A stretch of DNA of 64,000 bases from Thermodesulfovibrio sp. 3907-1M (GTDB lineage Bacteria; Nitrospirota; Thermodesulfovibrionia; Thermodesulfovibrionales; Thermodesulfovibrionaceae). Shown in pieces: positions 14,154 to 61,255 of the stretch (its first letter is position 1; each line of letters opens with the position of its first letter). Where the stretch lies: positions 910,486-974,485 of the forward strand of contig NZ_CP144373.1 of the NCBI RefSeq assembly GCF_040450955.1. The letters run 5' to 3'. Below the pieces are notes generated by a model. It was not told the origin of the DNA and ran no database searches. It saw nothing but the letters and a program-made list of their open reading frames with translations. The position numbers were made by a program, and so were the translations under genes.

Positions 14154-14499
14154 AAAAATAATGAAGCTTTAAAGTCAGATAGAAAATCCTGAAATTGCCG
14201 ATAGAAAGTGTTACTGTGAGCCTGTCTCCTTTATCATTTCAAGCCTTTTTCCTCTGTCATTCCAAGCCTCTCTACTTTGTCATTCCGAGCCCTTCGGCTA
14301 CGCTCAGGGTAAACTCCGCGAGGAATCCCCTCTCCTTTAGCTTTCAGTGTGTCATTCCGAGGCATTAGCTGAGGAATCTCCTACTTAATAAAAAACAGTA
14401 ATGATACTGCCACGCAACTTACGGGTCCTCTTCAATTACCAGTGAGACAATAGTCTTATTCTCCTTGCAAATCTGGTGAGATTAAGATTTTCATTGAGA
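14154..14499. other. Intergenic region with dispersed repeats, no gene
   Basis: Gap of about 410 bases between the MoaE-like gene and trmO. It holds one copy of the TCCTGAAATTGCCGAT element (14187-14203) and several copies of the ATTCCGAG / GAGGAATC palindromic family (14240-14385). The end nearest trmO is AT-rich and carries that gene's promoter. I see no convincing reading frame in it. Confidence 0.7.
14270..14385. repeat. Cluster of ATTCCGAG...GAGGAATC palindromic repeats
   Basis: Copies share GTCATTCCGAG on one side and GAGGAATC(T/C)CC on the other, so that ATTCC pairs with GGAAT around a variable loop. The copy at 14280-14332 differs in only about four of 53 positions from the copy embedded in the ABC ATPase gene at 58029-58082. 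Confidence 0.85.
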
Positions 14500-23916: not shown

Positions 23917-26900
23917 ATTGCGAGCCTACCTATGAGGAATTGAAACTTTATGCAGAAATGGCTAGACAAGTAACTGCACTTACATTGCGAGCCTACCTAT
24001 GAGGAATTGAAACCTTTATACATATATTTATTTTTTTTATACGTTTGGTTATTGCGAGCCTACCTATGAGGAATTGAAACCGGGGGGCCCTGGGGAGGAG
24101 CATCTGCTCAACCCTCATTGCGAGCCTACCTATGAGGAATTGAAACCAAATTTGGAGTTGATTTGACAGCAGAATTCGAGGAATTGCGAGCCTACCTATG
24201 AGGAATTGAAACAAAGAGGTATATGACAGATTCGGTCCCTCGATACAGATTGCGAGCCTACCTATGAGGAATTGAAACCTATTATGTGGACTACTATCAA
24301 GTGGATGATGTGGATTGATTGCGAGCCTACCTATGAGGAATTGAAACTCCCCCCGACCTGCTCTGCGTAGGTTCGGGGGAGGAAATTGCGAGCCTACCTA
24401 TGAGGAATTGAAACAGTATCAGGGCGAAAAAGTCGCCCTGATATCATTTGATTGCGAGCCTACCTATGAGGAATTGAAACTATGCCCGCAACGGCTTTTT
24501 TCCCAATTTAGGAAAGATTGCGAGCCTACCTATGAGGAATTGAAACCGTATAAAATTTCGCAATGAAAGCAATCCGTAGCTTTATTGCGAGCCTACCTAT
24601 GAGGAATTGAAACAACCCCTGCAGCAGCAAATGCTGCAGGGGTTTTTATATTGCGAGCCTACCTATGAGGAATTGAAACCCGGTGGCGAAAAATTATTAC
24701 AAGTTATTTAGTTAAAATTGCGAGCCTACCTATGAGGAATTGAAACAGTATCAGGGCGAAAAAGTCGCCCTGGTATCATTTATTGCGAGCCTACCTATGA
24801 GGAATTGAAACTAACAATTTTATAGAAAACGTAATTGATAGTTATAAATTGCGAGCCTACCTATGAGGAATTGAAACGTAAGCTTAATTTGAATTTATTG
24901 TTAGTATTTGTATGATTGCGAGCCTACCTATGAGGAATTGAAACACCTGTGCAACTCAACTGCTTTTTTGATAAGTGCCCTATTGCGAGCCTACCTATGA
25001 GGAATTGAAACTATGTCTTTGGTTACCAGCAGGATGGACTTGGACATCATTGCGAGCCTACCTATGAGGAATTGAAACAAGGATTACGTTTTTATTTTCC
25101 AGAGCGGGAAAATTTATTGCGAGCCTACCTATGAGGAATTGAAACTCTTTATTTTGCACAGGGGGTAAATCCTTACTGCTATATTGCGAGCCTACCTATG
25201 AGGAATTGAAACATATCCAATCAATCTGTAACAATGCCTGTGATCCGTATTGCGAGCCTACCTATGAGGAATTGAAACAAAATTTTGAAAACATTTATGG
25301 AATTATTTTATCCAACATTGCGAGCCTACCTATGAGGAATTGAAACCATCCAAATACAAACAAAAAGCCATACTATATATACACATTGCGAGCCTACCTA
25401 TGAGGAATTGAAACATTGGCAATCTTAATGTGTTGTGCCATTTAACAATATATTGCGAGCCTACCTATGAGGAATTGAAACCCGTGCCGACCTCTACGGG
25501 ATTGTCCTCGTCCCCCAATTGCGAGCCTACCTATGAGGAATTGAAACTTTTTGAGCTTGAATCAAGCCCGTCAAAGTATGTAAATTGCGAGCCTACCTAT
25601 GAGGAATTGAAACTTTTTGAGCTTGAATCAAGCCCGTCAAAGTATGTAAATTGCGAGCCTACCTATGAGGAATTGAAACACAATTGTCAGCATATGTGAT
25701 ATGATAGAAGTATAGAAAATTGCGAGCCTACCTATGAGGAATTGAAACCACAATCCCCAAAATCCAAAGTAAAATCAACTCCAAAATTGCGAGCCTACCT
25801 ATGAGGAATTGAAACAAATAATTTCGAGAAAAGGGGATATCAATATCCCCTATTGCGAGCCTACCTATGAGGAATTGAAACAGGGATTGACATTTTTAGG
25901 TGAAAGTTTGAAAAGTGGATTGCGAGCCTACCTATGAGGAATTGAAACCAGGAGAGATATTGAGTCAGAGGCTCAATTAGTGCAGGATTGCGAGCCTACC
26001 TATGAGGAATTGAAACTGGAAAGAGTGAGAGTTCGTATTATGTGGCAAATACATTGCGAGCCTACCTATGAGGAATTGAAACAGCTATGTTTTTTACTGC
26101 TTCCACAGGTTTCATCGCATTGCGAGCCTACCTATGAGGAATTGAAACTTGTCAATGGGATGGGCAGGTGTATACAACATATCAAGATTGCGAGCCTACC
26201 TATGAGGAATTGAAACCGTCACCCTGAAAGTCCTTGAGAGCTTCCTTGGAGAAATTGCGAGCCTACCTATGAGGAATTGAAACTAGAGTTTTTCATATTC
26301 ACAAAATCTTGCCAAATATTATTGCGAGCCTACCTATGAGGAATTGAAACTTTTTCCTCATGTTTTTCCTGTTTATCCTGAGTCTGATTGCGAGCCTACC
26401 TATGAGGAATTGAAACCCACCTCACCAGCGGAATGCTTCTTAGAACAAATGAAATTGCGAGCCTACCTATGAGGAATTGAAACATGTATGAGATTCTAGA
26501 AGTGTTGTTAATGAAGGCTAATTGCGAGCCTACCTATGAGGAATTGAAACTATGCAGGCACATAACTATAAAAGACTAATTCTCATAATTGCGAGCCTAC
26601 CTATGAGGAATTGAAACTATGCAGGCACATAACTATAAAAGACTAATTCTCATAATTGCGAGCCTACCTATGAGGAATTGAAACTTTCTTATATCTCTTA
26701 TAGTGGGGTTGAAATGAAAAATTGCGAGCCTACCTATGAGGAATTGAAACTGGGGCAAAGGGGTGTACAGGTAGCTGTATGTCCTGATTGCGAGCCTACC
26801 TATGAGGAATTGAAACTATCTCAACATTTTTTGGCTACCAAAATAGTGTTGGATTGCGAGCCTACCTATGAGGAATTGAAACCAGAAATGGCTTGTTGGG

Positions 26901-29900
26901 CTTTCTCTCTTTCTCATATTGCGAGCCTACCTATGAGGAATTGAAACTCTTCAAATAAAAAGTTTCTCGGAATTTGGACAGGGAATTGCGAGCCTACCTA
27001 TGAGGAATTGAAACGAAGAAAAATATAAAGACATCAAAAGATGCTTAAAGTCATTGCGAGCCTACCTATGAGGAATTGAAACGACAAATAACTTTTTGAG
27101 ATTTGCCAATATGGAACTCATTGCGAGCCTACCTATGAGGAATTGAAACACATGATGTAAAAAACCGCATACCTTGATGGGTTTTGATTGCGAGCCTACC
27201 TATGAGGAATTGAAACATAGACCACTGAGATGTAATATATCCGAAGTAGGGGAAATTGCGAGCCTACCTATGAGGAATTGAAACAGTATGGAACTCCTTG
27301 CTGCTTTAGTAAGGAAGCAACAATTGCGAGCCTACCTATGAGGAATTGAAACTCAGAAACAGGTTTAAGAACGGTTTGTAAGTTTGAATTGCGAGCCTAC
27401 CTATGAGGAATTGAAACGGAGTTCCCGTGTGCAGAGAGAAACACGGGAACTCCATTGCGAGCCTACCTATGAGGAATTGAAACCGTCGTGGTCAGGGGTA
27501 TCTTGAAAAGTCTTAAACTGATTGCGAGCCTACCTATGAGGAATTGAAACGGAGTTCCCGTGTGCAGAGAGAAACACGGGAACTCCATTGCGAGCCTACC
27601 TATGAGGAATTGAAACGTGACTAACTCAACCAAAACTTACCCCGCCTAACTAATTGCGAGCCTACCTATGAGGAATTGAAACAGAAAAAAGCTAAGTTAT
27701 TGAAAAATCTACCTTTTTTTATTGCGAGCCTACCTATGAGGAATTGAAACAGAAAAAAGCTAAGTTATTGAAAAATCTACCTTTTTTTATTGCGAGCCTA
27801 CCTATGAGGAATTGAAACTCGTTTTTAGCAGGCATTATCTTGCAATGAAAACTGATTGCGAGCCTACCTATGAGGAATTGAAACACTGTAGCTCCTTTAG
27901 ATTCAAGAACTTTCAGGTATTCATTGCGAGCCTACCTATGAGGAATTGAAACGAGACTCAATCTCGTGGAGTTCCACATTATCACATTTTATTGCGAGCC
28001 TACCTATGAGGAATTGAAACTTTTCTCTCTTTTTTCTTTGTCAGCTATAGCTAATTCTATTGCGAGCCTACCTATGAGGAATTGAAACTCATACTGGAAA
28101 TGGGGGTTCTCTGGATTGAAAAGGGATTGCGAGCCTACCTATGAGGAATTGAAACTTCGTCCCGATATAATGCGATCTGCGAGCTTTTTCCATTGCGAGC
28201 CTACCTATGAGGAATTGAAACTAATACGTATATAGTTAATTCCGATGTTCTTTTGGATTGCGAGCCTACCTATGAGGAATTGAAACAAGAAGAGAAAAAT
28301 ATAAACAAAGATATAAAGTGTGTATTGCGAGCCTACCTATGAGGAATTGAAACAAGAAGAGAAAAATATAAACAAAGATATAAAGTGTGATTGCGAGCCT
28401 ACCTATGAGGAATTGAAACTACATAAATGCTAATAAAATGTCAAGAGCCATACACAAATTGCGAGCCTACCTATGAGGAATTGAAACCATGGACATTTTG
28501 GAGAACCATTCTCTCTTGAAGCATTGCGAGCCTACCTATGAGGAATTGAAACACTGGTAGTTTAGTAAATCGCAGGAAACATGAAGGCATTGCGAGCCTA
28601 CCTATGAGGAATTGAAACACTGGTAGTTTAGTAAATCGCAGGAAACATGAAGGCATTGCGAGCCTACCTATGAGGAATTGAAACTGTTTCTCTTCTTTAT
28701 TTTGAGTAGTCTGTTGTTGAAATTGCGAGCCTACCTATGAGGAATTGAAACTGACGATTGGAGAAATTTATGCGATGGTTCGTATGTAATTGCGAGCCTA
28801 CCTATGAGGAATTGAAACTCAGATTTTTTTAGCTTTATGGAAAATATTACATTGCATTGCGAGCCTACCTATGAGGAATTGAAACGTGAATGCTGTGAAT
28901 GCTGAGATATTAGGTGATTTAGTATTGCGAGCCTACCTATGAGGAATTGAAACTATACTTTTTTTCTATTTTCCTCTGACATACTGGCGCATTGCGAGCC
29001 TACCTATGAGGAATTGAAACTGAAGTTGAACCCCGTATAAAATAGATCAATCATTTAATTGCGAGCCTACCTATGAGGAATTGAAACACTTTTTTTTGAG
29101 AATGTGATATATATATGAATATGAATTGCGAGCCTACCTATGAGGAATTGAAACAAAAAACCTGCCAGTGTTGCTTGTGGCAATTAGTACAGATTGCGAG
29201 CCTACCTATGAGGAATTGAAACAGAAAGAAGTAGTTGATATGGATACGGGTGAAGTAAATTGCGAGCCTACCTATGAGGAATTGAAACAAGGTGTTCTGA
29301 CTAAATACAAGGCAGATATACTTGATTGCGAGCCTACCTATGAGGAATTGAAACTAGGTTTTCTTTTGCTTCGGTCTGGCTTTCTTTTTGGATTGCGAGC
29401 CTACCTATGAGGAATTGAAACCAAGTAGTAGAACAAGAGTTTATATCAGGCTTCAGAATTGCGAGCCTACCTATGAGGAATTGAAACGAGGCAGTGGCAA
29501 ACCATGAGATAGAGATATATGTAAATTGCGAGCCTACCTATGAGGAATTGAAACTGAGCCTCTTCAACTCAGCTCGTATTTGCTTTGGTGAATTGCGAGC
29601 CTACCTATGAGGAATTGAAACCCAATTCTAAGAGCAGGATAATTTTGGTGTGTGATAATTGCGAGCCTACCTATGAGGAATTGAAACTGTTATAATTAAG
29701 TATGATAGAAATAATTGAAATGGATTGCGAGCCTACCTATGAGGAATTGAAACTCAAAATATGTACCATATCCTTCTATTTTATTCTTATATTGCGAGCC
29801 TACCTATGAGGAATTGAAACGTTCAGGAAATAATTCGGGATTTGGGGGAAGCCCCAGATTGCGAGCCTACCTATGAGGAATTGAAACTACGAAGCATATC

Positions 29901-30423
29901 ACCATCTCACAAAAGGAATAGACATTGCGAGCCTACCTATGAGGAATTGAAACTTATTTCTGGGTTTTAGAATTTCAGTCTCGTGGTGTGCATTGCGAGC
30001 CTACCTATGAGGAATTGAAACTCTTTAAAAGGAGTGATTAATGGGAGCAGTGATTTCTATTGCGAGCCTACCTATGAGGAATTGAAACTATGTTGCGTAT
30101 ATAGTCCAGTCAGATGTTCTTCTTGTATTGCGAGCCTACCTATGAGGAATTGAAACCCCCCAATGCCCCTTTTGGGGAATAATAAAAAAGGAGGATTGCG
30201 AGCCTACCTATGAGGAATTGAAACCATGGAACAGCAGTGTTATTTTTATGCTGTTGATTCTATTGCGAGCCTACCTATGAGGAATTGAAACAAAAACTCT
30301 CCTTCCCATGTTCCAGCTAGTCTTTTCATTGCGAGCCTACCTATGAGGAATTGAAACGAGTGGAAACAGGAGGGATATTGAGAATTGTGGAAAATTGCGA
30401 GCCTACCTATGAGGAATTGAAAC
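23917..30423 (+). CRISPR. CRISPR array 1, type I-B, 98 repeats and 97 spacers
   Basis: The 30-base repeat begins ATTGCGAGCC and ends GGAATTGAAAC. I counted 98 copies by eye and they look identical, including the last one. Spacers are mostly 34-38 bases. The ATTGAAAC end gives the standard 8-base 5' handle for Cas6-cut crRNAs, so transcription is on the plus strand, away from cas2, with the leader on the left. Five adjacent spacer pairs are duplicated, one pair is separated by a single spacer, and one pair differs by a base plus length. Several spacers are near-perfect hairpins. Short frames across the array with a repeated CEPTYEELK motif are artefacts. Confidence 0.99.
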
Positions 30424-32073: not shown

Positions 32074-32132
32074 AAAATTTGCACAACCTTCCTTATAACT
32101 TATTGAAAAATAAAAAAAAAGTAAGCGACTCA

Positions 32133-32852
32133 GTAGGAAACTTGACCTCATTTAAAAGGGATTGCGACTTTGAACACTTGCAGCAGTTTGCCGCTTAAAA
32201 CTAACATGTAGGAAACTTGACCTCATTTAAAAGGGATTGCGACTCAAACTTAGCATTGTGAGATATTAAATACGAATGATTGCTTGTAGGAAACTTGACC
32301 TCATTTAAAAGGGATTGCGACGCGACCTGATTCACCCTGAAATATCCTACTGTTGTCTTTTCGTAGGAAACTTGACCTCATTTAAAAGGGATTGCGACTT
32401 TTTTCGATAGACTCTGATATTATCATTTTTCAAAGTAGGAAACTTGACCTCATTTAAAAGGGATTGCGACCTTGCCCTCCTCCCGTTTTTCAATTTTTCC
32501 CACCCTTCGTTTAGTAGGAAACTTGACCTCATTTAAAAGGGATTGCGACAAAAACCCCGGCAATTTTCTAATTGCCGGGGTAATAAAAAGTAGGAAACTT
32601 GACCTCATTTAAAAGGGATTGCGACCAAACTTCCCGCAAACAGGACAAAGATCCACTCCACCCACCTGTAGGAAACTTGACCTCATTTAAAAGGGATTGC
32701 GACCAACCAGCAGCAAAGTCCTCGTCTGCCCAGTCCCAGAATGTAGGAAACTTGACCTCATTTAAAAGGGATTGCGACTATCTATTACTTTGCTCGCTTC
32801 TGCTTTAGTTAGATCAGTAGGAAACTTGACCTCATTTAAAAGGGATTGCGAC
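32133..32852 (+). CRISPR. CRISPR array 2, 10 repeats and 9 spacers, no adjacent cas genes
   Basis: The 36-base repeat begins GTAGGAAACTTG and ends AAAGGGATTGCGAC; the ten copies start at 32133, 32208, 32286, 32363, 32435, 32514, 32590, 32668, 32743 and 32817 and look identical. Spacers are 36-43 bases. The repeat is unrelated in length and sequence to array 1, so it should be served by a different effector, perhaps type III or another type I system elsewhere in the genome. One spacer (32550-32589) is a hairpin with an 11-base stem. Confidence 0.98.
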
Positions 32853-32954
32853 CGCACGCCTTCGGCGTGAAGTGAGTTAGTGAATTAGTGAGTTAGAAAT
32901 CATGAAAATCAATAAAAAAGAACAATTTTATAATTTTGCATATTTTTATTAAAA

Positions 32955-43697: not shown

Positions 43698-44183
43698 ACA
43701 ATTAAACGAGTTCCTGAAAATGCCGATTAAAACTGTAATTCCAAGCCTCTTTCCCTTGTCATTCCAATCCTTTTTTATTTGGCACCAATCCTGCTTTTTA
43801 TTTATCATTCCAAACCTTCTCCTGGCATTCCATTCTCTGTCATTCCGACATTTTTTTGTCATTCCGAGGAGCGTTAGCGACGAGGAATCTCCTCCTTTCT
43901 CACTATTTCAGAGATTCCTCGGGTGGGATTCCACCCTCGGAAGGCGAGGAATCTCCTTCGTTTTTTCTGTATTAAAGACTTAAAGATTCCTCGGGGCATT
44001 GAGCCCCTCGGGATGACAGAATAATATAATACTACCCTCTGAATGACCTTTCAATTTGCCATTATGAGCTTTCAATGTGTCATTCCGAGCGCGAGCGAGG
44101 AATCTCCTTCTTTTCTTTCGGCATTGTAAGTAGTCAGAGATTCCTCGGGTTGCAAAGGGTTTTCTCCTGAAAAGTGGGAAAAG
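43698..44183. repeat. Large cluster of palindromic repeats, no gene
   Basis: Begins with one TCCTGAAAATGCCGAT copy (43712-43727). From 43750 to about 44155 it is almost continuous ATTCC/GGAAT elements in both orientations, for example GTCATTCCGAGGAGCGTTAG at 43858 and AGATTCCTCGGGTGGGATTC at 43912 and GTCATTCCGAGCGCGAGCG at 44080. No intact gene. Confidence 0.8.
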
Positions 44184-56233: not shown

Positions 56234-57184
56234 GTGAAAATTAATTTCAAAAAGCTGATAATAGTTGTCGTTATTCTAATTCTTGTGTTTGTTTTATCAT
56301 ATTTGATAATCAAAGGCTCTGAAAAAACTACTCAGGGAATCATTATTTTAAGCGGAAGAATTGAAGGAAGAGAAACGAATGTATCTCCAAAAATTCAGGG
56401 CAGAATTATCAAACTTTACAAAGATGAAGGAGATACTGTAAGGATGGGAGAAATTCTATGTGAGATTGATTCAGAGCAACTAACTGCAAGATACAAAGCT
56501 GCATTTGAAACTGCAGAGGCTTCCTATTCTGCAATTGCTCAGGCTCAGGCAAATCTAATGAAAGCCCATGCCACATATGATAAAGCAAAAAAAGATTATG
56601 AGCGATACACAAACCTTCTTAAAGAAGAACTTGTCTCAAAAAGCGATTTTGATAGAATTAAGATGCAGTATGAATCAGCACAGGCTGAGGTTGAAGCTGC
56701 TTCCAAGGCTATATCTCAGGCAGAGGCAAACTTCAGAGCATCACAGCAAAGGCTGAAGGAGACACAGGCTGATTTAAATGAAACAAAGATTTTTTCACCC
56801 ATTGAAGGAATTATTCTCAGCAGACCTGTTGAATTGGGAGAGGTTGTAAATCCAGGAACTGTTTTGTATGTTATAGTTGACTTAAACAGACTTTATGTTA
56901 AAGTTTATGTGCCTGAACCCGATATTGGCAAGTTAAAGCTTGGACTGCCTGCAAGAGTTTACATTGATGCCTATCCTGATAAGTTTTTCAACGGAAGGGT
57001 TACAAAGATTTATGAGCAGGCTGAGTTTACTCCAAAAAATGTGGAAACAAAAGAAGAGCGAGTTAAACTTGTATTCGGCGTGGAGATTTCAGTAGATAAT
57101 CCAGAGGGACTTCTTAAACCCGGAATGCCTGCTGACGTTGTAATAAAATGGAAAGATGAAGCACCTTGGATAAAGCCACAATAG
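56234..57184 (+). CDS. ybhG: HlyD-family membrane fusion protein (YbhG-like)
   Basis: 316 residues. N-terminal membrane helix (LIIVVVILILVFVLSYLII), first biotinyl-lipoyl half GRIEGRETNVSPKIQGRIIKLYKDEGDTVRMGEILCEID, a long coiled coil (about 75-180) and second half KIFSPIEGIILSRPVELGEVVNPGTVLYVIVD, then the beta-barrel part. It links an inner-membrane pump to a TolC-type channel. Gene order (fusion protein, tandem ATPase, two ABC-2 permeases) matches E. coli ybhGFSR. GTG start at a leaderless promoter. Confidence 0.87.
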   Translation: MKINFKKLIIVVVILILVFVLSYLIIKGSEKTTQGIIILSGRIEGRETNVSPKIQGRIIKLYKDEGDTVRMGEILCEIDSEQLTARYKAAFETAEASYSAIAQAQANLMKAHATYDKAKKDYERYTNLLKEELVSKSDFDRIKMQYESAQAEVEAASKAISQAEANFRASQQRLKETQADLNETKIFSPIEGIILSRPVELGEVVNPGTVLYVIVDLNRLYVKVYVPEPDIGKLKLGLPARVYIDAYPDKFFNGRVTKIYEQAEFTPKNVETKEERVKLVFGVEISVDNPEGLLKPGMPADVVIKWKDEAPWIKPQ

Positions 57185-57202
57185 CTTTTAGATATAATAC
57201 CG

Positions 57203-57246
57203 GAAAATGTCATTCCGAGGGGCTCAATGCCCCGAGGAATCTCTCA
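57203..57246. repeat. Palindromic repeat element between ybhG and ybhF
   Basis: GTCATTCCGAGGGGCTCAAT... closing with GCCCCGAGGAATCTC: GGGGC pairs with GCCCC and ATTCC with GGAAT. Sits within the exporter operon, between stop and next start. Confidence 0.75.
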
Positions 57247-57297
57247 TGAGAAAGGATTCTTAGGGTTTGTATTATTAGCTGATATAAAAAGCATATC

Positions 57298-59007
57298 ATG
57301 ATAAATGAAAAATTCATTATAAAAGTTGAAAATCTCTGCAAAAACTATAAAAAAATCAAAGCAGTTGACAATGTCTCCTTCTCTGTAAACAAAGGTGAAG
57401 TTTTTGGTCTTATTGGTCCTGATGGTGCTGGAAAAACATCAATAATACAGATTCTTGCAGGAGTACTTAAGGCAAGCTCAGGGAAGGCTTTTATAAATAA
57501 CATAGATGTTACAAAAAATCCAGAGGCTGTTAAATCAATCATTGGCTATATGCCTCAAGGTCTTGGACTTAATCTTTATGATTCTCTCTCTATTGAGGAG
57601 AATATTGAATTTTTCAGAGGCTTAAGGCTTATTCCTGATGAAGTATTTGAAAAAAATAAAAAAACACTTCTTGATATAACAAGGCTCACACCATTTCTTC
57701 AGAGACAGGCAAGAGCTCTTTCAGGAGGAATGAGGCAGAAGCTTGCTCTTGTTTGCACATTGCTACATCTTCCAGATATTATTCTGCTTGACGAGCCTAC
57801 AACGGGAGTTGACCCCCTTTCAAGGCAGGATTTCTGGAACATCATTCACGGACTTGTAAGACAAAGGGGCGTGACTGTTTTACTTAGCACATCGTATATG
57901 GATGAAGCAGAAAGATGCCACAGGGTTGCACTCATGCATGAAGGAAGAATTCTTCTTCAGGGAAGCCCTGATGAACTTGGCAATTTAGAGGAAGTTTTTA
58001 TAGAAAAAGTATCAACTTCTCATTCCGAACCTTTTCTTTGTCATTCCGAGTCCTTCGTCTATGCTCAGGGTAAACTCCGCGAGGAATCTCCTGTTATCTT
58101 ATGCAAATCAGTGACAAAACTCTTTGGAAAATTTAAAGCTGTTGACTCTGTTACGCTTGATGTAAAAAAAGGAGAGATTTTAGGACTTCTTGGTCCGAAT
58201 GGAGCAGGCAAGACAACTCTAATAAAAATGATGTGCGGACTTCTTGAACCATCAGAGGGAAGTATCACCATAAATGGATTTGATGTTCAGAAGAAAAAGA
58301 AAAAAATATGGTCAACAATCGGTTACATGTCACAGAGATTTTCCCTTTACAGAGACCTGACAGTAATGGAAAACATGAAGCTTTATGCTGGACTTTACAG
58401 TGTAAAAAGCGGTGATTTCAAAGGAATAATTAAACTGCTCGGACTTGAAGGAGTTGAGGGAAGAATCACAAAAGACCTCCCTCTTGGAATAAGACAGAGA
58501 GTTGCCCTTGCCTGCGCTCTGGTTCATGAGCCACCTATTTTATTCCTTGATGAGCCGACAAGCGGAGTTGATCCTGTTGCAAGAAGAAGTTTCTGGAAGA
58601 TAATTTTTGAGCTATCAAGGAATAAAAATGTAACAGTAATTGTATCAACCCACTACATGGATGAAGCTGAAAACTGTGACAGACTCTGTCTTATGCATCA
58701 TGGAAGGGTTATTGGATTAGGAAGCCCTGAAGAAATTAAGAAAAACTCTGAAAAGCTTTCAGGAAGTCTTATTCAGGTGAAAACAGAAAGGTTTACAGAA
58801 ATCTATGATTTGCTTATAAAGAACTTCAAAGACATATCAATTTACGGAAGCAAGATATTTATAAGAAGCTTTGAGCCAGAAAAGACAAAGCAAAAATTAA
58901 GCGAAATATTAATTAATGCAGAAATCAAACAGTTTGAAATTACCCAGACTCCAATTCCCCTTCAGGAAGCTTTTGTTAACTATATAAGGGAAAGGGAAAA
59001 GAATTAA
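57298..59007 (+). CDS. ybhF: Tandem ABC-2 transporter ATPase (YbhF-like) with a repeat-encoded linker
   Basis: 569 residues, two ATPase domains. Domain 1: Walker A GPDGAGKTS (from residue 40), signature LSGGMRQK (141), LLDEPTTGVDP. Domain 2: Walker A GPNGAGKTT (299), degenerate signature LPLGIRQR (394), FLDEPTSGVDP. Such a second signature is usual for YbhF-type fusions. Between them, residues about 241-265 (SHSEPFLCHSESFVYAQGKLRE) are encoded by a dispersed palindromic element inserted in frame (58018-58093). It powers the two permeases that follow. The stop codon overlaps the next ATG. Confidence 0.93.
   Translation: MINEKFIIKVENLCKNYKKIKAVDNVSFSVNKGEVFGLIGPDGAGKTSIIQILAGVLKASSGKAFINNIDVTKNPEAVKSIIGYMPQGLGLNLYDSLSIEENIEFFRGLRLIPDEVFEKNKKTLLDITRLTPFLQRQARALSGGMRQKLALVCTLLHLPDIILLDEPTTGVDPLSRQDFWNIIHGLVRQRGVTVLLSTSYMDEAERCHRVALMHEGRILLQGSPDELGNLEEVFIEKVSTSHSEPFLCHSESFVYAQGKLREESPVILCKSVTKLFGKFKAVDSVTLDVKKGEILGLLGPNGAGKTTLIKMMCGLLEPSEGSITINGFDVQKKKKKIWSTIGYMSQRFSLYRDLTVMENMKLYAGLYSVKSGDFKGIIKLLGLEGVEGRITKDLPLGIRQRVALACALVHEPPILFLDEPTSGVDPVARRSFWKIIFELSRNKNVTVIVSTHYMDEAENCDRLCLMHHGRVIGLGSPEEIKKNSEKLSGSLIQVKTERFTEIYDLLIKNFKDISIYGSKIFIRSFEPEKTKQKLSEILINAEIKQFEITQTPIPLQEAFVNYIREREKN
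58015..58093. repeat. Palindromic repeat inserted in frame in the ATPase gene
   Basis: From CATTCCGAACC through CTCAGGGTAAACTCCGC to GAGGAATCTCC. Nearly identical to the intergenic copy at 14280-14332, and here it is translated as an inter-domain linker. Confidence 0.85.
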
Positions 59008-60134
59008 TGAATAAAAGACTTCTTACAATAATTAAAAAAGAATTCAGGGAACTGCTGAGAGATCCTCTTTATCTTAGTTTTACTATTATCGTTCCTGTAA
59101 TTATACTGATACTTATGGGTTATGGACTAATACTTGATGTGAAAAACATTCCTGTGGCTTTTCTTGATTTTGACCGTTCAGCTTTAAGCAGGGATTACAG
59201 ACACTCATTCACAAACTCTGAGTATTTCAGATTTTATTCAATGATAAACAGCTATGATGAAGCATATGAACTGATTCAATCAGGGAGATGTAGAGTCATT
59301 GTTGTAATCCCTCCTGATTTTTCAAGAAAGCTTTATAGCGGGCAGAAAACTCAAGTTCAGTTTCTCATTGATGGCTCTTTCCCATCCCGTGCAGAGATAA
59401 TAAAGGGATATGTCTCTGCAATCAATAATCAGTTCAATCAAAAACTTCTTGAAGATTTCACCTCAATGCAGGGCAGACACATAAGTTTTCCAGTAGAAAC
59501 TGAAATGAGAGCCTGGTATAACCCTGCACTTGAAAGCAAAAACTTTGTACTACCAGGGATGCTTGTTATAACTTTGATGTTTTATCCTGTTTTGATTGCG
59601 TCTCTGGTTGTTGTAAGGGAAAAAGAATCAGGCAGCATATTTAATCTTTACTGTTCACCTGTTAAAGCCTGGGAGGTTGTTTTAGGTAAGGCAATTCCTT
59701 ATATAACCATATCTTTTACCACTTACATAATTCTTTTTATCATTACAGTTGTTTTTTTTAAAACAAAGTTTATCGGCAACTTTTTAGTTCTAACAATTGC
59801 TACTTTGCTTTATCTAACATGCACAATTGGAATAGGAATATTTATATCAATGATAGCAAAAACTCAGATAACAGCAATGCTTATGGCATTTTTAGGCACA
59901 ATAACTCCATCTTTTATGTATTCAGGGTTTTTCTCACCTGTAACGAGTATGGAGATTATAGGACAGATAATGAGCAAATTTATTACTGCAACATATTTTA
60001 TAGGCGTTGTAAGAGGGGTTTATCTTAAGGGGCTCGGGCTTGGTTATTATCTGCCTAATATTCTATCTCTTTTACTTTATGCCTTGATTGTATATTCGCT
60101 TTCAATGTTATTTTTCAGGAAAAGAATAGGATGA
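59007..60134 (+). CDS. ybhS: ABC-2 type permease (YbhS-like)
   Basis: 375 residues. Cytosolic start KRLLTIIKKEFRELLRDPLYL, helix 1 (FTIIVPVIILILMGYGLIL), a periplasmic domain to about 175 (NIPVAFLDFDRSALSRDYRHSF, VIPPDFSRKLYSGQ) and five more helices with VVREKESGSIFNLYCSPV, the conserved ABC-2 coupling segment. Starts within the ATPase stop and overlaps the next permease by 4 bases. Confidence 0.92.
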   Translation: MNKRLLTIIKKEFRELLRDPLYLSFTIIVPVIILILMGYGLILDVKNIPVAFLDFDRSALSRDYRHSFTNSEYFRFYSMINSYDEAYELIQSGRCRVIVVIPPDFSRKLYSGQKTQVQFLIDGSFPSRAEIIKGYVSAINNQFNQKLLEDFTSMQGRHISFPVETEMRAWYNPALESKNFVLPGMLVITLMFYPVLIASLVVVREKESGSIFNLYCSPVKAWEVVLGKAIPYITISFTTYIILFIITVVFFKTKFIGNFLVLTIATLLYLTCTIGIGIFISMIAKTQITAMLMAFLGTITPSFMYSGFFSPVTSMEIIGQIMSKFITATYFIGVVRGVYLKGLGLGYYLPNILSLLLYALIVYSLSMLFFRKRIG

Positions 60135-61255
60135 GGTTGTTTTCACTCATAAAAAAAGAGATGACTCAGCTTATGCGAGATAAAGTTTTAATTTTCATTC
60201 TTTTGTGGGGATTTACTGGAATGATTTACACTGCAGGTCATGGAGTTTCTATGGAAGTAAGGAACTTCCCAACAATTATATATGATATGAGTCATAGCCC
60301 TGAAGGCAGAGAAATTGTCAGCAGATTTCAAAAGCCTTACTTTAAAATCCTTGCCTTTGTTGATAATGACAGGGAAGTGGTAGAATGGCTTGACAGCGGT
60401 AAAGCATCAATGGCTATTGTTATTCCTCCAGATTTCAAAAGAAAGCTTAAAGGTTCAGGAGCAAAAATACAGGTAATAATTGATGGAACAATGTCCATGT
60501 CTGCAACAATGGCTGTTGCCTATGTATCATCAATAACATATAACTATGCAATAGAAGTTTTTGAAAGAAAGATGGGTATAACGAGTAGATTTTTTAATGA
60601 AATCCCGATCATTGATGAAAGAGTAAGGGTTCAATTCAATCCAAACATACTTACATCATGGTTTATGAGTTTGCTTGAGCTTTTCAACGTAACAACAATG
60701 GTTTCTCTTCTTGTAACTGCGGCAGCACTTGTAAGAGAAAAGGAATATGGAACAGTTGAACAACTTCTTGTTACACCTGTCAGAACATGGGAGATATTTG
60801 TTGCTAAAATAATTCCAACAATTTTTGCAGTAGGAGTCCTTTCCCTTTTAAGCATATTTTTGATGATTAAAGGGGTATTTAAAGTTCCAATAAGAGGAAG
60901 CTTGCTGCTTTTTTATCCTGTTATGATTTTTTATGTTTTTACCATGTCTTCTCTTGGAATAGCAATTGCTACTGTGGCAAGAAATCTTGCGCAATCAATG
61001 ATGCTCATGCTCGTAATTCTTACACCAATGCTCATGCTCTCAGGTGCATGGACACCACCTGAGTCAATGCAACCTTTTATGCGCTATTTAAGCCTTATCT
61101 CTCCAATGCGATATTTTATTGACTTTGGTTACAGCGTTCTTTTTAAAGGTAATGGAATAAAGTATGTCTGGTATGATATTTTTGGAATAATTATTCTTGG
61201 CAGCATACTGTTTAGCTTTTCAGTTTACCGTTTCAGAAAAATTTTTGCAAAGTAG
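60131..61255 (+). CDS. ybhR: ABC-2 type permease (YbhR-like)
   Basis: 374 residues, paralog of the preceding gene: LFSLIKKEMTQLMRDKVLIFI, periplasmic region with VIPPDFKRKLKGSG, VREKEYGTVEQLLVTPVRTWEIFVAK and membrane helices ending in LSGAWTPPESMQPFMRYLSLISPMRYF. Likely a heterodimer with YbhS. Last gene of the exporter operon; it meets the minus-strand tolC-type gene 18 bases later, with no clear hairpin terminator between. Confidence 0.92.
   Translation: MRLFSLIKKEMTQLMRDKVLIFILLWGFTGMIYTAGHGVSMEVRNFPTIIYDMSHSPEGREIVSRFQKPYFKILAFVDNDREVVEWLDSGKASMAIVIPPDFKRKLKGSGAKIQVIIDGTMSMSATMAVAYVSSITYNYAIEVFERKMGITSRFFNEIPIIDERVRVQFNPNILTSWFMSLLELFNVTTMVSLLVTAAALVREKEYGTVEQLLVTPVRTWEIFVAKIIPTIFAVGVLSLLSIFLMIKGVFKVPIRGSLLLFYPVMIFYVFTMSSLGIAIATVARNLAQSMMLMLVILTPMLMLSGAWTPPESMQPFMRYLSLISPMRYFIDFGYSVLFKGNGIKYVWYDIFGIIILGSILFSFSVYRFRKIFAK

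Follow-up and report, generated by a model that had tools for sequence, protein, structure and literature searches.

A repeated DNA hairpin that appears to be translated as an inter-domain linker in an ABC ATPase from Thermodesulfovibrio

Most of what is known about palindromic repeats that encode protein comes from obligate intracellular bacteria, and in these it is easy to explain them by weak selection. The Thermodesulfovibrio are thermophiles of the phylum Nitrospirota and are presumably free-living. In-frame palindromic elements have been described for Rickettsia and Wolbachia (PMC2229807, PMC10969869), and in the gmk gene of Rickettsia the palindromic insert is translated and the protein is still functional (PMC2229807). 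Also, other small repeats are fused to genes in enterics and in Neisseria (PMC2229807, PMC10969869, PMC3733652). REPs seldom overlap coding regions, according to a survey that gives counts for T. yellowstonii (PMC12306157); a search of its text turned up neither "in-frame" nor "intragenic". Among open-access titles and the beginnings of abstracts, a scope that lies mostly outside the subscription literature, we found no report of such elements for Thermodesulfovibrio or for Nitrospirota as a whole.

We examined a window of 64,000 nucleotides from the genome of Thermodesulfovibrio sp. 3907-1M (G000), along with other genomes of the genus (G001 to G015). In one operon of this window, a repeated DNA hairpin seems to encode a floppy linker between two ATPase domains. 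The relevant features of the window are:

14282-14327, forward strand: sister copy between genes, whose core is of the same type as that of the copy in the ABC gene (repeat families; pattern match)
43733-44110, forward strand: intergenic array of the repeat family, with half units as well as palindromes, in either orientation
56234-57184, forward strand: gene for an HlyD-type adaptor, in the same operon as the ABC ATPase
57212-57241, forward strand: intergenic copy of the element between the HlyD-type adaptor and ABC genes, with core GGGGCTCAATGCCCC (family pattern match)
57298-59007, forward strand: gene for the tandem ABC ATPase that hosts the element, 569 amino acids with two nucleotide-binding domains (unbroken open reading frame; two ABC_tran stretches)
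58018-58092, forward strand: linker peptide SHSEPFLCHSESFVYAQGKLREESP encoded by the element, codons 241-265 (translation of the reading frame; low pLDDT)
58020-58040, forward strand: 21-nt half unit TCATTCCGAACCTTTTCTTTG, 5' of the palindrome (sequence; repeat families D6, D7, and D11)
58041-58091, forward strand: palindromic element, whose arms TCATTCCGAG and CGAGGAATCTCC enclose a core of 29-30 nt (genome place G000:C1:968528-968573)
59007-61255, forward strand: two genes for permeases of the ABC-2 type, at 59007-60134 and 60131-61255, also in this operon

The copy in the ABC gene is complete and in frame. Its 72 nt (58020-58091) consist of one 21-nt half unit and one 51-nt palindrome. Over 62 nt, it matches the intergenic copy at 14270-14331 with 90% identity (repeat family D8). 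The first-pass annotation had described a complete palindromic copy that is nearly identical to one at 14280 and lies in frame between the ATPase domains. Both points held up: the reading frame of 569 amino acids is unbroken, and the element is flanked by two ABC_tran domains. The best curated model for this protein is RbbA (NF033858), with a score under the model's cut-off. In an AlphaFold2 model of the ABC ATPase, built from an alignment of 11 sequences, the mean pLDDT is 88, and values below 50 are found only at residues 1-4 and 242-262; the latter lie within the element peptide and are flanked by confident ATPase domains. The suggestion that the insertion was tolerated in an inter-domain loop agrees with the element's position in the linker of an unbroken, conserved reading frame. 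We infer that the linker peptide is made in the cell and is near neutral for the transporter.

The intergenic copy at the junction of the HlyD-type adaptor and ABC genes is also present in G015, and there is none in the seven other orthologous loci that we examined. In all seven of these loci, the adaptor gene either adjoins the ABC gene directly or overlaps it (the corresponding region is 57184-57298), and in G000 and G015 the ABC gene appears to begin at a new ATG. G001 is without the junction element, though it is nearer to G000 in the tree. An Rfam scan of the window found nothing above threshold except one tRNA. The window also contains two CRISPR-like arrays (23917-30236 and 32132-32866). 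The repeat of the first array, ATTGCGAGCCTACCTATGAGGAATTGAAAC, resembles the arms of the palindrome (ATTCCGAG...GAGGAATC), which could be a coincidence.

The pattern ATTCCGAG N(4-34) CGAGGAATC has 130 matches in the 1,935,540-base genome of G000, with nested matches counted, and the reversed pattern, as a control, has 0. The arms of the copies are ATTCC/GGAAT, with a GA/GA mismatch inside the palindrome; the core varies and is usually self-complementary. The unit is about 26-51 nt long, or 72 nt with the half unit in the ABC gene. Copies often occur in inverted pairs or after half units of about 21-25 nt; these half units also precede intergenic copies (for instance, in the array at 14208-14331). 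At the flank of 105 copies with longer exact ends, position -1 is G in all 105 and position -2 is T in 103, giving TGTC. The three forward frames are free of stop codons in 96, 97, and 99 of these 105 copies, as compared to 67, 82, and 33 for the reverse frames and 45% for simulated AT-rich sequences of matched lengths.

A related pattern matches 126 times in G000, 32 times in G015, 18 times in G004, 16 times in G003, and 9 times in G001; three more genomes have 5, 3, and 1 matches, and no match was found in the remaining 8 of the genus's 16 genomes. In our genome collection, the taxonomic family consists of this genus alone. In a sample of the phylum, the repeat pattern is found in 30 of 245 genomes and in 14 of 116 genera. 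The profile for Y1 (REP-type, RAYT-type) transposases, PF01797, has no match in G000; among the genus's 16 genomes, two have matches, G011 and G014.

Nine genomes of the genus encode ten full-length copies of the ABC ATPase. The element-bearing linkers have 28 (G000), 33 (G001), and 41 (G015) amino acids. The element was not detected in the other six of the nine genomes, whose linkers are short and unrelated: 22 amino acids in G007 and G011, 23 in G005 and G012, 24 in G004, and 27 in G006 (counted by hand from the alignment). The outgroup ortholog from Thermodesulfobacterium thermophilum (65% identical) has a linker of about 21 amino acids, again by hand count; the outgroup scan retained the 13 of 80 loci that have both domains in one open frame. 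About 25 residues had been said to be added. This is correct for what the element encodes (residues 241-265), but on balance the G000 linker is longer by about 5 residues (28 versus 22-27 amino acids). Because the net gain is this small, most of the former linker would have been displaced (lost or rewritten), which is an extra step.

The closest sampled relative with the gene is G001 (84% identical). Its linker has the same half unit, arms, and frame as that of G000, with a different core, so the recent insertion that was first proposed is doubtful. The G001 linker copy is the sole copy found in its 4.7-kb locus and is one of 9 exact matches in the genome. An ortholog with the same linker and without nearby repeats had been named beforehand as the observation that would count against an insertion. 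G001 has the isolated linker, but this linker is itself the repeat. It therefore points to inheritance from an insertion that predates the split of G000 and G001, and is not an argument against insertion. In G015, the ABC gene is present in two copies, and the element is in another frame (SFRAEAKRSPEPQAKGLRGIS) and deeper into the linker; we read it as an insertion independent of the G000/G001 copy. G007 has a weak arm match at the same place (14/20, not significant), which is possibly an old relic. The simplest reading is that the same linker was hit by at least two insertions. In the tree, G000, G002, and G001 form a well-supported clade and the remaining backbone of the genus is poorly supported, so counts of independent events are rough.

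A genome scan for further in-frame copies, as the first-pass annotation had proposed, turned up GT9 in G000 and several more genes in the sister species. For G000, we surveyed the stretches around the listed copies, the earlier loci, and the window, which together make up 12% of the genome. The survey yielded 125 non-overlapping copies, for a copy number of about 125. By reading, two conserved genes have an interior copy in frame: the ABC ATPase and a GT9 glycosyltransferase. Most stop-to-stop reading frames that overlap copies were rejected as intragenic cases, as they span intergenic repeat arrays or lie upstream of the likely start. At least 11 such reading frames were judged by eye, and Pfam searches covered GT9 and one fn3 protein:

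G000:C1:1856057-1857307: GT9 glycosyltransferase gene with an in-frame copy, insert RHSEPHLCHSEQMRGIP in mid-protein (Pfam)
G000:C1:1891705-1892937: fn3-domain, lipoprotein-like reading frame (L166) with in-frame 21-nt half units and an element

Judging from the fold family, the GT9 insert probably sits between two Rossmann domains. This first GT9 site has a decayed form in G002 (CYSDHSFCHSEQKQKIS), loops of 4-10 amino acids in G003, G005, G012, and G013, and other element-like sequence in G015 and G008. In a second loop of GT9, G008 carries a fresh copy (FCHSERGEESP); the G000 loop holds a relic (CHYEPFGYSQDGSS). In the fn3 reading frame, SFRAFLL repeats and then SFRAKRGISS lead in frame to a hydrophobic stretch that ends in LTGC. 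Translation could begin at the TTG right before the element, and the element and half units may encode the start region of the signal peptide of this lipoprotein-like protein.

Our scan of the sister species covered 79 copies in 40 loci (L192-L230 and L032). HypF has three interior in-frame copies in G015 and two, matched by the same search pattern, in G004. In-frame copies are also found in acetyl-CoA synthase, CobN, NuoC, and the ABC ATPase of G015, in LeuRS and the ABC ATPase of G001, in NuoC of G004, and in a radical SAM protein of G010. For CobN and NuoC, the element is probably in frame: the CobN-like reading frame of G015 (L199:68-2536) is incomplete, at 823 amino acids versus about 1270 for the family, and this gene may be split or run on past a stop, and the NuoC copy is in an N-terminal extension with an uncertain start codon. 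A 225-amino-acid reading frame common to G015 and G004 and a 167-amino-acid reading frame in L194 matched no family and are excluded from the counts. Copies in frame in recognised genes number 5 of 32 in G015 versus 2 of 125 in G000 (Fisher p 0.004), a comparison on which we place no weight, as the patterns are slightly different. Judged from these copies, the element is confined neither to the ABC gene nor to this species, and the phenomenon is wider than first claimed.

Comparison of orthologs shows that the loops of LeuRS, HypF, and acetyl-CoA synthase are filled, decayed, or short, depending on the species. LeuRS has forward copies in G001, G005, and G015 and reverse-strand copies or relics in G000, G005, and G015; without a significant copy, the loop has 16-22 amino acids in G002, G003, G004, G013, and G014 and 35 in G011. 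One reverse-strand copy in HypF is common to G015, G004, and G005. When aligned to the solved structure 3vth, the HypF query leaves residues 316-377 (62 in all) unmatched and is 11 residues longer near 735-745. PDB alignments of acetyl-CoA synthase and CobN have no clean single gap at the element, because adjacent loops vary too; in the structure alignment of LeuRS, the element is within a poorly aligned loop. In-gene copies have lost arms in several species.

G015 also has an exact tandem duplication of 51,203 bp (L283, L281, and L282; G015:C1 near 1497053, 1548256, and 1599459), which contains both copies of the ABC gene. All three boundaries carry a 79-nt segment with a palindromic element. 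This is as expected from recombination between element copies, which it suggests, or from an assembly artefact. Within L283 (5967-6593), a TetR-like reading frame ends in GDSSPSLCSRSE; it looks like a reverse-strand element provides its C-terminus and stop codon.

To compare the arms with chance, we searched 51 ortholog reading frames from five genes for arms of 10+10 nt with a gap of 4-40, and did the same for 30 codon shuffles of each. (The 51 rows omit the ABC ATPase of G006, LeuRS of G009, HypF of G003, G006, and G012, and GT9 of G004.) The ABC gene of G000 scores 20/20, versus a maximum of 16 across its 30 shuffles. The floor of p = 1/31 was reached by 16 of the 51 rows, where about 1.6 are expected, and 15 of these 16 fall in element loops; the exception is GT9 of G003. 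Other rows scored lower: the ABC gene of G015 (16/20, p 0.10), whose core is longer than the largest gap allowed; acetyl-CoA synthase of G005 (16, p 0.10); and LeuRS (17, p 0.06) and HypF (15, p 0.52) of G000. There are ten loci that are read forward: ABC in G000/G001, ABC in G015, LeuRS, HypF site 2, acetyl-CoA synthase, GT9 sites 1 and 2, NuoC, radical SAM, and the fn3 lipoprotein. Seven of them use the polar HSE..EES frame, two use SFR, and one uses IPS, with one third expected for each. The preference for HSE..EES is only suggestive, as these loci are a non-random sample.

We conclude that the linker stretch is very probably a short, non-autonomous, REP-like palindrome that was inserted in frame into the ABC linker in the ancestor of G000 and G001. 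At the level of sequence, its in-frame position, its identity with a repeat family, the orthologs with, without, or with different elements, and the decay of copies are all documented. A chance or convergent likeness between linker and repeat, or a repeat that derived from the ancestral linker, is hardly credible, even though the linker is a region of low constraint in which G007 has its weak, non-significant arm match (14/20). The arms in G000 are exact, the 90% identity over 62 nt is to another copy, and the control pattern had 0 matches; furthermore, G001 and G015 have different elements in that loop, and the linkers of the other six genomes are unrelated. We rejected this explanation based on the repeat identity, the ortholog comparison, and the arms test.

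The copy might instead be retained for a role as nucleic acid: a hairpin in the mRNA could slow translation for co-translational folding, attenuate expression, or guide processing. The element is a hairpin located exactly between two independently folding domains, and in the second copy, at the HlyD/ABC junction of G000 and G015, both stem arms were altered together (GGGGCTCAATGCCCC versus GGGACTAAATGTCCC). However, the linker element is undetected in six of the nine genomes with a full ABC ortholog. Also, the ABC-gene copy folds at -7.3 kcal/mol, which is weaker than its intergenic sister (-11.5 kcal/mol) or typical copies (-17.6 and -18.2 kcal/mol). Because of this weak folding, and because in-gene copies lose arms in several species, we think that an mRNA role is quite unlikely. 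Another explanation is that the core of an older linker element was swapped by recombination (for instance, with the copy at 14280), and that recombination, not transposition, is the main motor in the loops. This would fit with G000 and G001 agreeing in half unit, arms, and frame and differing in core, with PF01797 having no match in G000, and with the element-bearing 79-nt segment at all three boundaries of the G015 duplication. But separate insertions in each species would also yield different cores, and the first arrival of the element at new sites, such as the loops of LeuRS and HypF, is left unexplained. We view core swapping as possible, if on the doubtful side.

If the linker did arise by insertion in the common ancestor of G000 and G001, then a non-autonomous hairpin repeat with an interchangeable core would be spreading both between and within genes. 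Copies would be moved by an activity acting in trans, or else would recombine with one another. One of them would have inserted into the inter-domain linker of the ABC ATPase in that ancestor and displaced most of the old linker. We propose that this copy persists because its forward frames are nearly stop-free and because the linker accepts almost any soluble peptide. Copies that keep the frame in tolerant loops would survive, pass to descendants, and then decay, and other conserved proteins of the genus would likewise have taken copies into their loops, leaving inherited, decaying relics.

More tentatively, and with the balance slightly against it, we speculate that REP-like hairpins are a standing source of new linkers and surface loops in Thermodesulfovibrio. 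The loops of the ABC ATPase, LeuRS, HypF, and GT9 would have been refilled repeatedly in separate lineages, with nearly stop-free forward frames and the polar HSE..EES reading suiting translation. If true, protein-coding palindromes would be a way in which loops evolve in general, and would not be peculiar to intracellular bacteria. In-frame palindromes in the housekeeping enzymes of a thermophilic genus suggest that an intracellular lifestyle is not required. Also, since one and the same loop occurs filled, decayed, and empty among sister species, what becomes of an insertion can be measured. For genome annotation, HSERSEES-like or SFRAKRGIS-like peptides should not be dismissed as spurious.

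How does this element compare to known systems? As in ERIC, YPAL, and Correia/NEMIS, small mobile repeats are fused in frame to genes (PMC2229807). Those repeats are about 100-170 bp, have TA termini, and differ in sequence and in hosts (PMC2229807). Unlike them, the element affects several housekeeping enzymes of one genus, in the same loops. REP and BIME sequences are more similar in form: short imperfect palindromes (20-40 nt) with many copies and frequent inverted pairs. In contrast to REPs, the end of the element reads TTGTCATTCC, versus the GTAG/CGTC tags of two REP super-families (PMC3733652), and the host genome (G000) has no RAYT-type (PF01797) match. The first-pass annotation drew a parallel with Rickettsia in an unrelated lineage, and this parallel is borne out: like the RPE and the Wolbachia palindromes, the element is a genus-level repeat that is both intergenic and in frame in conserved protein genes, with several genes per genome. 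As is required of RPE-type insertions, there are orthologs that lack the insertion (for ABC, GT9, LeuRS, and HypF). RPEs are about 105-150 bp and are from obligate intracellular alphaproteobacteria, whereas this element is 26-51 nt (72 nt with the half unit), has an unrelated sequence, and is from Nitrospirota. By analogy, the Thermodesulfovibrio element is not an RPE but works like one; it is a shorter hairpin of REP-like form, from a lineage distant to Rickettsia.
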